Source: Patescibacteria group bacterium (GTDB lineage Bacteria > Patescibacteriota > Kazan-3B-28 > UBA10110). Taken from it: DNA of 13,882 nucleotides. The notes under the pieces are model-generated. The model did no database searches, had not been told where the DNA came from, and saw nothing but the letters and a program-made list of their open reading frames with translations. Each line of letters begins with the position of its first letter. Position 1 is the first letter of the stretch. Of the stretch, positions 9,168 through 10,872 are shown piece by piece. The position numbers were made by a program, and so were the translations under genes. The stretch covers positions 4,276-18,157 of the forward strand of contig DQGN01000020.1 of the NCBI GenBank assembly GCA_003524745.1, read 5' to 3'.

Positions 9168-9605
9168 ATGAAAAATTGGGGAGTAGTTGTTGTTTTGGTT
9201 TTAATTGTGAGCGCTGGTTTGTTACTATGGCAATATCGCCAGCCAGCGAAGGTCTGCCGGTATAGCGATGCGAGTAATACGATAGAAGAGATTTGTGTTT
9301 ACAACCTTAAGGCAGCAACGGCAGTTAAGAATCCCTTGGTGCTAACTGGCGTGGCGAGAGGTAATTGGTTTTTTGAAGCCTCATTTCCGGTAGAAATTCT
9401 GGATGGCAACAATAATGTGTTAATGCAAGGTTTAGCCCAGGCGCATGGCGAGTGGATGACGGCAGACCTGGTGCCATTTACGGTTACCGAATTAAAATTT
9501 GTTACTCCCGCGACTCCTACTGGTGTCATAGTGCTGAAAAAAGACAACCCTTCTGGTCTCCCGCAAAATGATGCCAGTTTTACCATTCCCATCAAATTCA
9601 AATAA
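9168..9605 (+). CDS. Membrane-anchored protein with Gmad2-like immunoglobulin-type domain
   Basis: This is a 145-residue protein with an N-terminal membrane anchor (residues 5-22, VVVVLVLIVSAGLLLW) and an extracytoplasmic domain. The domain pattern of residues 55-144 (NPLVLTGVARGNWFFEASFPVEI, DGNNNVLMQGLAQA, FTVTELKF, TGVIVLKKDNPSG, ASFTIPIKF) matches Gmad2, the beta-sandwich found with GerMN in spore-germination proteins and widespread in non-sporulating CPR bacteria. There is no lipobox. Two cysteines (about residues 30 and 43) flank a short polar linker and could form a disulfide. Its stop overlaps the truB start as TAATG, and a GerMN protein follows truB. The cellular role is unknown, probably envelope-related. 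Confidence 0.75.
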   Translation: MKNWGVVVVLVLIVSAGLLLWQYRQPAKVCRYSDASNTIEEICVYNLKAATAVKNPLVLTGVARGNWFFEASFPVEILDGNNNVLMQGLAQAHGEWMTADLVPFTVTELKFVTPATPTGVIVLKKDNPSGLPQNDASFTIPIKFK

Positions 9606-10393
9606 TGCCGGGTATTTTTTTAATAAATAAGCCTAAGGGCATCACTTCGCATGATGTGGTGAATTATTTGCGTAGGGTAACCGGTGAAAAAACGATTGGG
9701 CATGCTGGGACATTGGATCCATTAGCTTCCGGCCTGATGATCGTAGCTGTGGGGCGGGAATTTACTCGCCAAATTTCTAATTTTTCTAAATTAGATAAAA
9801 CCTATTTGGTTGAAGCGACTTTAGGCGCCACCAGTACTACTTACGACGCCGAAGGAGTTATTACCCCCGCTCGTCATTCCGAATCATCTCTTCGTCATCC
9901 TGAACTTGATTCAGGATCTCTGGCACAGATTCCGGATCAAGTCCGGAATGACGGGATAGCAAAACCGAATCAAGAGAAAGTTAATAAAACACTCCAGAGT
10001 TTTGTGGGCCGGCAAAACCAGATGCCGCCGATATTTTCGGCTAAGAAGATCGGTGGTCAAAAAGCTTATGATTTGGCTAGACAAGGGAAACCAGTAGAGC
10101 TAAAAGCCGTGCCAGTCAATATCTATGAGATAAAGTTATCAGAATACCACTATCCCATACTCAAATTTAGCACCAAAGTTTCGTCCGGCACCTATATCCG
10201 TTCTTTAGTCCACGATATCGGGCAGAAGTTGGGTAGTGGAGCGTATATGTCGGGGTTAATTCGTGACTCGATCGGTGAATTTAAGTTATCAGAAGCCATG
10301 GATTTGTATCAAATTAAATCTCTCGCCGATTTACACCCCCACCAGCTCCCCCTTATTAAGGGGGAGAGTAGGGGGAGTATAATTAAATCGTGA
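9605..10393 (+). CDS. truB: tRNA pseudouridine(55) synthase TruB carrying two repeat-derived segments
   Basis: TruB converts U55 of the tRNA T-loop to pseudouridine. Family motifs are INKPKGITSHDVV, GHAGTLDPLASGL with catalytic D38, KTYLVEATLG, QMPPIFSAKKIGGQKAYDLARQG, and SSGTYIRSLVHDIG followed by LIRDSIGEFKLSEA. Between DAEGVI and the PPIFSAKK motif about 30 residues are added compared with usual homologues. Residues 90-117 (HSESSLRHPELDSGS, then IPDQVRNDG) are the translation of a palindromic DNA element. The last residues (LPLIKGESRGSI) translate a second, unrelated palindrome. Both keep the frame and leave the catalytic core whole, so the enzyme is probably functional. The 262-residue total is within the family range. 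The stop TGA overlaps the GTG of the next gene. Confidence 0.96.
   Translation: MPGIFLINKPKGITSHDVVNYLRRVTGEKTIGHAGTLDPLASGLMIVAVGREFTRQISNFSKLDKTYLVEATLGATSTTYDAEGVITPARHSESSLRHPELDSGSLAQIPDQVRNDGIAKPNQEKVNKTLQSFVGRQNQMPPIFSAKKIGGQKAYDLARQGKPVELKAVPVNIYEIKLSEYHYPILKFSTKVSSGTYIRSLVHDIGQKLGSGAYMSGLIRDSIGEFKLSEAMDLYQIKSLADLHPHQLPLIKGESRGSIIKS
9872..9953. repeat. Palindromic element inside truB, translated in frame
   Basis: The outer ends CGTCATTCCG (9872-9881) and CGGAATGACG (9944-9953) are a perfect 10-bp inverted repeat. Inside are two hairpins with 8-bp arms: ATCCTGAA (9897-9904) with TTCAGGAT (9910-9917), and ATTCCGGA (9929-9936) with TCCGGAAT (9942-9949). Their 5-nt loops, CTTGA and TCAAG, are complementary, so the halves are imperfect inverted copies. 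The layout resembles dispersed palindromic elements known in many bacteria, including those in Rickettsia that insert within genes. Confidence 0.85.
10346..10376. repeat. C/G-tract palindromic repeat at the 3' end of truB
   Basis: CTCCCCCTT (10346-10354) and AAGGGGGAG (10358-10366) form a perfect 9-bp stem around ATT. A second GGGGGAG copy follows at 10371-10377. Repeats of this look are dispersed in many bacterial genomes. Here it is read as TruB residues LPLIKGESRG. It lies directly upstream of a TATAAT and the next gene's GTG. Confidence 0.75.
10378..10383 (+). promoter_or_regulatory. -10 box placing the GerMN GTG at the predicted transcript start
   Basis: A perfect TATAAT ends exactly 6 nt before GTG 10390, so by standard spacing +1 would be the G of that GTG. 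There is no TG extension, and the -35 region falls in the G-rich repeat, so strength is doubtful. Translational coupling from truB is an alternative route to expression. Confidence 0.4.
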
Positions 10394-10872
10394 TAAAATA
10401 TATTATCTGGTTATTGATTGGAGTAGTTTTAGGAGCTGGAGTTTACTGGCTGTATCAGCGATACAATTCTGCACCAGTTAATTCTCCCGGAGAACAGATG
10501 ACCATCTCGGTTTATTTTGCCAAAAGTGAACCCACAGATATCGCTATCGTGTCGGTTAAGCGGACTATTCCTAAAACCGTGGCAGTAGCTACCGCTGCTA
10601 TGCAGGAATTATTAAAGGGGCCAACAGATGCAGAAAAAGCGCAGGGCTTAAGCACGGCGATTAACTCGGGCACCATTCTGAATTATGTCAGAATCGAGAA
10701 TGGTGTAGCTACTGTAGATTTCAACGATAGGTTCGATTTCCAGATGGGAGGTTCGGCTAGGGTGATGGCGATTAATCAGCAAATTCTAAAGACGCTTACT
10801 CAATTTCCCACCATCAAGACAATTAAATTAACGATTAACCAAGGGGAACGTCCAGCTAATTTAGAACCGTAG
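10390..10872 (+). CDS. Membrane-anchored GerMN-domain protein
   Basis: This 160-residue protein has an N-terminal membrane anchor (residues 4-23, YIIWLLIGVVLGAGVYWLYQ) followed by a short linker and an extracytoplasmic GerMN domain. The GerMN pattern is clear: ISVYFAK near residue 38, AMQELLKGPTDAEKAQGLSTAI, GTILNYVRIENGVATVDFNDRF, then the C-terminal helix and strand (INQQILKTLTQFPTIKTIKLTING-like). GerMN occurs in GerM of spore formers and in many non-sporulating lineages, where its ligand is not established. A Gmad2 protein lies just upstream of truB, and the two domains are often fused in one polypeptide elsewhere. The GTG overlaps the truB stop (GTGA) and lies 6 nt after TATAAT. Confidence 0.85.
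   Translation: MIKYIIWLLIGVVLGAGVYWLYQRYNSAPVNSPGEQMTISVYFAKSEPTDIAIVSVKRTIPKTVAVATAAMQELLKGPTDAEKAQGLSTAINSGTILNYVRIENGVATVDFNDRFDFQMGGSARVMAINQQILKTLTQFPTIKTIKLTINQGERPANLEP

Follow-up and report, generated by a model that had tools for sequence, protein, structure and literature searches.

Repetitive extragenic palindromes (REPs) of the CGTC superfamily are described by Di Nocera, De Gregorio and Rocco 2013 (PMC3733652; statements on this paper here and below refer to the available part of its text) as units with an unpaired CGTC or TGTC tag, an 8-9 bp stem starting with AT, a loop of 4-5 nt and a short 3' tail mostly fitting CCA. The units form head-to-head dimers with spacers mostly of 20-100 bp, heterodimers prevail in families 2 and 3, and family CGTC-2 has a stem of 8 and a loop of 5. 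In-gene REPs, which encode 20-30 residues, have been known since 2013 for Proteobacteria and Rickettsia, truB included: REPs lie in truB of S. maltophilia, E. litoralis and S. alaskensis, and the Rickettsia palindromic element RPE-1 in truB of R. conorii (PMC3733652). According to the same paper, RPE-4 corresponds to CGTC-4 and RPE-6 to CGTC-1, RPE-1 being longer. The five phyla listed there for CGTC REPs do not include Patescibacteria, and the available text reports no transposase association for these repeats. Here we describe a palindromic element within truB, the gene of tRNA pseudouridine-55 synthase, of an uncultured Patescibacteria bacterium. The window, meaning the whole stretch of DNA analysed, comprises 13,882 nt of contig DQGN01000020.1 (GenBank assembly GCA_003524745.1), and positions are numbered from its first letter. 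We consider it probable (roughly 0.87) that the element is a CGTC-superfamily REP, in the form of a head-to-head heterodimer, which landed in a loop of the Patescibacteria truB.

A paired palindromic unit within truB

The 82-bp segment 9872-9953 has perfect 10-bp inverted ends (CGTCATTCCG at 9872-9881 and CGGAATGACG at 9944-9953) and two inner 8-bp hairpins, whose stems are given in Table 1, just as an earlier reading of the window without database searches (the sequence-only reading) had described it. That reading took the whole 82 bp as the element; the segment itself stands, and the repeating unit proved to be the 61-bp dimer at 9893-9953, an inverted pair of 27-bp palindromic units preceded by a remnant. 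Both units carry an unpaired CGTC tag and differ from each other at 6 of 27 positions, and a degenerate consensus made from these two units gave 2 matches in the window and 0 in 200 shuffles. Compared with dinucleotide shuffles, the segment folded with a z-score of -3.55 as RNA and of -3.69 as DNA of the minus strand; an Rfam search returned no match. The remnant at 9872-9892 resembles a third unit cut short, as judged from its first bases, and the TruB proteins P0002 and P0003 contain a dimer-like peptide and lack the remnant peptide. An artefact of a single assembly is unlikely because protein cluster P0001, whose representative differs from the window TruB by one residue near the C-terminus, comprises 3 sequences, found on 6 contigs of NCBI, JGI and ENA origin.

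To define the unit family, occurrences were collected by similarity to five palindromic reference units with GTCAT required, which gave 123 occurrences (84 distinct) from six genomes and the window, with one palindrome read on both strands at one place at least. Across the 84 distinct units, 96.9% of the 672 cells of the 8-pair stem were paired, and five of the eight stem pairs were altered on both sides. None of 500 shuffles equalled the paired share, the doubly changed cells or the covariation score, three equalled the number of doubly changed pairs and two the number of pair types; with the partner shifted by one column, stem pairing reached at most 55.2%. The stem started with A-T at columns 5-25 (82 of 84 rows) and T-A at columns 6-24 (81 of 84), and the loop measured 5 nt. 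Given the GTCAT required at collection, the first base of the 123 occurrences was C in 44, T in 76, G in 2 and A in 1; the tail, taken as columns 26-27 only, had C at column 26 in 113 and T (85) or C (36) at column 27. Head-to-head dimers numbered 32, the one in the window included, in a count that took in this orientation only. Spacers measured 0-23 nt in 98 of 101 dimers under a scan that allowed up to 48 nt, and the window spacer CTGGCAC was absent among the 101 dimers from 120 loci. The six bases outside the CGTC tags were 72% pyrimidine on the tag strand versus 49% further out (32 dimers, from loci L105-L179 and the window), a pyrimidine-rich flank that may reflect target choice.

Table 1. 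Coordinates of truB and of the palindromic features within it
Feature	Position	Strand	Details
truB, tRNA pseudouridine-55 synthase, insert in frame	9605..10393	+	262-codon open frame; Pfam TruB_N 3.3e-43, TruB_C_2; PDB TruB matches
Upstream remnant	9872..9892	+	first 10 bases = start of unit 2; translated RHSESSL
REP dimer, head-to-head, CGTC tags outside, 61 bp	9893..9953	+	translated as RHPELDSGSLAQIPDQVRND
REP unit 1	9893..9919	+	tag CGTC, stem ATCCTGAA/TTCAGGAT, loop CTTGA, tail CT
Spacer, 7 nt, separating both units	9920..9926	none
REP unit 2, inverted	9927..9953	-	tag CGTC, stem ATTCCGGA/TCCGGAAT, loop CTTGA, tail CT
Second near-palindrome, 21 bp, 3' end of truB	10346..10366	+	CTCCCCCTTATTAAGGGGGAG; inside QLPLIKGES; unrelated to REP units

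The TruB protein and its variable loop

The segment is open throughout in the truB frame, and aligning the translation to T. maritima TruB set query residues 91-121 opposite chain residues 91-94, that is, about 27 extra residues; the claim that the element is translated in frame as additional residues thus stood. An AlphaFold2 model of the window TruB had a mean predicted local distance difference test (pLDDT) score of 88.8, with blocks of 49-62 over residues 91-120, 58 and 65 at the C-terminus, 81-84 over residues 141-160 and at least 90 in the remaining core, and its structure matches were the TruB entries 2ab4, 1r3e and 1k8w. The insert lies after strand 86-88 and before helix 123-132 of the model, and is predicted to form a floppy, disordered loop on a confidently predicted TruB.

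Loop length was measured from the D..G motif to the PP.FSA motif, which could be cut by pattern in 109 of 120 TruB proteins. The loop spanned 30-82 residues in the 16 closest TruBs and reached 37 or more in 11 of them (the cluster of the window included), whereas 5 of 93 other TruBs had 35 or more; five class relatives read from DNA all had 29. By peptide ends, 9 of the 11 inserts look CGTC-type (RH or CH at the start and QDD, RND or QND at the end, in six versions), and the other two carry a different peptide, NLPLIKGG or NLPLVRGG. P0006, with a CGTC-type insert, and P0009, with an LPLIKGG insert, are sisters (support 100/96) with the same insertion place, and a peptide of the form RHPELxSGSxAQIPDxVRND is common to P0002 and P0003. 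In the alignment of the 16 closest TruBs, strong length variation occurred only in this loop and in the C-terminal tail. A tree of 25 TruBs implied at least six changes of insert class, a rough count given the tree's poor resolution (stars on 5 of 22 inner branches). The segment is not shared among close TruB relatives as an ordinary conserved stretch, and it is absent from T. maritima TruB as well. In these sequences the truB loop is a hot spot, where inserts of several types recur.

Peptides like QLPLIKGES, which in the window falls on the second near-palindrome, occur at two places in TruB relatives, the C-terminus (P0004, P0009) and the hot-spot loop (P0009, P0010). As a dispersed family of the class this palindrome was unsupported, with one match at up to two mismatches in one of the nine class genomes (G001-G003 and G005-G010; G004 lies outside the class set). 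The neighbours of truB are a Gmad2-domain gene (9168-9605) and a Germane-domain gene (10390-10872), and the wider stretch runs from an MraW-family gene through a MurG-like gene to a Mur ligase gene.

Copies in related genomes and in other genes

Copies were counted in relatives, the window organism's own genome not being among the genomes searched. BLAST matches to the element at E <= 1 numbered 1 in G001, 21 in G002, 5 in G003 and 4 in G004, and at E <= 0.1 there were 6 in G005, 0 in G006, 0 in G007, 13 in G008, 22 in G009 and 17 in G010, so that four of the nine class genomes (G002, G008, G009 and G010) are unit-rich with 13-22 matches each. A phylum scan (E <= 0.001) that mostly scored two candidates per genome, and hence gives presence and not copy number, found matches in 88 of 379 Patescibacteria genomes. 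We located 235 unit clusters in 187 fetched loci; most family units in related genomes lie outside long open frames. The search of related genomes for further copies, which the sequence-only reading had called for, thus yielded many, several of them in genes. A contig scan with a single protein matched 41 stretches and one of viral contigs matched 8, neither giving a relative; a scan with an alignment gave none above 55% identity among the best 80 of 549 loci.

Unit clusters were scored as in-gene when the open frame around them had 150 codons or more and extended at least 25 codons beyond them in both directions, which applied to 36 of the 235. The best family matches of these frames, several of them below the NCBIfam cut-off, were Fpg, a group II-like reverse transcriptase, TrmD, LeuRS, ArgRS, MnmA, KsgA/RsmA, NifS/IscS cysteine desulfurase, MiaA, MiaB, TrhP, RecG, a sensor kinase, RmlD, TsaD, ValRS, DNA polymerase I, a mycosin-like protease (where the unit match is probably due to chance) and a generic methyltransferase; the frames of L252, L298 and L319 had no match in the family search. 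In Fpg, TrmD, LeuRS and the reverse transcriptase the same insertion place was found in two or three genomes. Fpg of G010 has a different insert at the shared place, and in the reverse transcriptase (L111, L153 and L174) G008 and G010 carry single units where G002 has a dimer. In the LeuRS loop (L203 and L204) G009 has a REP dimer and G008 has KFQIPNSKFQI, a short AT-rich direct repeat. Genome G324 (L309, L328 and L329) has units in RecG (three), TsaD, ValRS and DNA polymerase I, beside lysine/asparagine-rich repeat-like stretches.

A length of 1 mod 3 was found for 18 of 20 in-gene dimers versus 29 of 114 other multi-unit clusters. Among the first 32 dimers, 11 of 12 with a length of 54 had stops in all six frames, and at least one frame was open in 9 of 9 in-gene dimers versus 6 of 23 others. 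The 36 in-gene clusters used the RHPE frame in 24 cases, antisense QVQDD in 7, antisense KSGMT in 2 and VILN in 2, with one unclassified. A single unit leaves the hydrophobic VILN frame open too, yet this frame is seldom retained, which suggests that in-gene landings are filtered for polar loop peptides.

In-gene stems change in a pair-preserving way. Between G008 and G009, 0 of 32 stem bases of the TrmD insert differ versus 22% of the bases of the gene. For LeuRS of G009 and G010, 2 of 32 stem bases differ, one pair having gone from T-A to C-G with two amino acids altered. Three comparisons of Fpg gave 2-4 differences in 32 stem bases, namely one T-A to C-G (synonymous) and two T-A to T-G, all of them paired. 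Stems would look the same after re-insertion or conversion by another copy, and selection is not proven.

For a gene-class test, family matches at E <= 1e-30 were used, with TruB, the nameless frames and the weaker methyltransferase left out and the mycosin kept; 40 random unit-free open reading frames of the same loci (24 named) served as control. With classes assigned by hand, RNA-modification enzymes made up 7 of 18 in-gene families versus 1 of 24 controls (RsmH; Fisher p = 0.013) and all nucleic-acid enzymes 14 of 18 versus 10 of 24 (p = 0.029); enrichment of DNA repair and replication, which the available part of PMC3733652 notes for other phyla, was not significant (4 of 18 versus 3 of 24, p = 0.44). 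Since the classes were picked after the matches were known, gene-class bias is a lead, and a bias of in-gene units to RNA-modification genes is suggestive only.

Origin of the element and its place among known repeats

If the element is a CGTC REP dimer, its landing site would be the TruB loop that follows the strand after DAEG and leads to the helix preceding the PPIFSAKK motif, and a landing in a gene would survive where the element is open and in frame, its peptide polar and the loop permissive. Movement may be brought about by a hairpin-recognising enzyme acting in trans, perhaps with CGTC dimers spreading via single-stranded hairpins, as for IS200-like transposases, and truB may have seen repeated independent landings and losses with a near-neutral effect on the protein. 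Tolerance in a permissive loop fits the evidence better than useful remodelling. The proposal of a mobile repeat that remodels proteins stands in part: the repeat is dispersed, with many copies and several of them in genes of relatives; that it still moves and that it alters TruB function is conjectural.

Several observations weigh against a CGTC REP that landed in truB. Filled and empty LeuRS, TrmD and Fpg gave no clean target-site duplication and no empty site at base precision, the duplication being unreadable because the flanks have diverged too far, and the net differences in length do not match the size of the element (in LeuRS, 120 nt in the filled gene, 66 in four relatives and 60 in one). 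No enzyme partner was found: Y1_Tnp (PF01797), the sole transposase family searched, occurs in two of nine class genomes (G001 and G005) and not in the unit-rich ones, and the fetched PF01797 loci hold no unit. Dispersal is known from relatives only, copies within the window's own genome being unseen, and 291 of the 379 phylum genomes gave no match at E <= 0.001. The inserts of close TruB relatives are known as protein only, so that their repeat nature comes from the end peptides, and the loop measurement dropped 11 pattern-less TruBs, at least one of which (P0108) has a long loop. The length bias of in-gene dimers partly follows from the requirement for a stop-free frame.

The architecture of the insert, two units in inverted order, is also that of a REPIN (a REP doublet forming a hairpin), and the Y1_Tnp-family genes of G001 and G005 would suit movement by a REP-associated tyrosine transposase (RAYT), an IS200-like enzyme, as in classical GTAG-type repeats. 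We regard this as very unlikely, given a tag of CGTC or TGTC and not GTAG, and an available text of PMC3733652 that gives no transposase association for CGTC REPs. Mobilisation by a RAYT is unsupported, with no Y1_Tnp found in G002, G008, G009 and G010, each of which has 13-22 unit matches, and no unit in the fetched Y1_Tnp loci. An insertion of the ordinary, lineage-specific kind, palindromic by chance and with a peptide selected for TruB function, would explain the likeness between the peptides of P0002 and P0003; it is exceedingly improbable, as the same 27-bp units recur in relatives, both within unrelated genes and in the stretches between genes, the remaining close TruBs carry another peptide or none at this position, and the loop is predicted to be disordered.

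It is unlikely that the hairpin is kept for work at the RNA level in the truB message (pausing, stability or processing). RNA and DNA folds that beat shuffles are in keeping with such a role, as are in-gene stems that change pair-preservingly, in LeuRS with two amino-acid changes, but 13 of 16 close TruBs lack the peptide of this dimer, the units are spread over many unrelated genes, and re-insertion or conversion by other copies gives the same pattern. A broader proposal is doubtful: that CGTC REP dimers accumulate preferentially in RNA-modifying genes of Patescibacteria (TruB, TrmD, MnmA, MiaA, MiaB, KsgA, TrhP and TsaD), that the TruB loop might be a docking site exchanging palindromic families, and that selection might keep stem pairing in coding sequence even at amino-acid cost. 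If this is true, the tRNA-modification machinery would be decorated time and again by the repeat, as a module that evolves and is selected for its hairpin.

With a REP dimer that landed in truB, in-frame palindromic repeats would be known from the candidate phyla radiation (CPR) as well as from Rickettsia and Proteobacteria; in the small genomes of the CPR, tolerance of repeats inside housekeeping genes is unexpected. The natural series of TruB loops, empty or with several insert types, offers a test bed for tolerance, frame filtering and stem selection, and for annotation it matters that peptides like RHPELDSGS...QVRND in Patescibacteria proteins can be repeat-derived. Two features most deserve to be followed, the truB hot spot with its several insert types and the in-gene stems whose changes keep the pairing. 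Among the open-licence papers listed by the literature searches, none showed in-gene REPs in Patescibacteria by title or abstract opening, and the term Patescibacter is absent from the main text of PMC12306157 as far as it was available.

Among known systems the window element most resembles the CGTC-superfamily REPs, as described in the available part of PMC3733652, in its tag, AT stem start, head-to-head pair, in-gene residues and truB as target, and in its many dispersed copies, found here in related genomes. Its 8-bp stem and 5-nt loop are like those of CGTC-2, a likeness of lengths and not of consensus. Unlike the published CGTC REPs it is hosted by Patescibacteria and its family has shorter spacers (0-23 nt versus 20-100 bp), several genes being struck at the same loop and truB by different insert types. 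With REPINs that have a RAYT it shares two inverted palindromic units with tags outward, but the tag is CGTC or TGTC, unlike that of GTAG REPs, and a RAYT partner was not found. Like RPE-1, RPE-4 and RPE-6 of Rickettsia it is a palindrome in frame within a protein gene, in another host phylum, a likeness that rests on their description in the available part of PMC3733652 and not on sequence comparison; the comparison with Rickettsia in-gene elements drawn by the sequence-only reading holds at the level of the same broad kind, now in a CPR genome. The kind, in-gene REPs, is thus already known; the present case adds the phylum, a truB hot spot with inserts of several types, and changes in in-gene stems that preserve the pairs.
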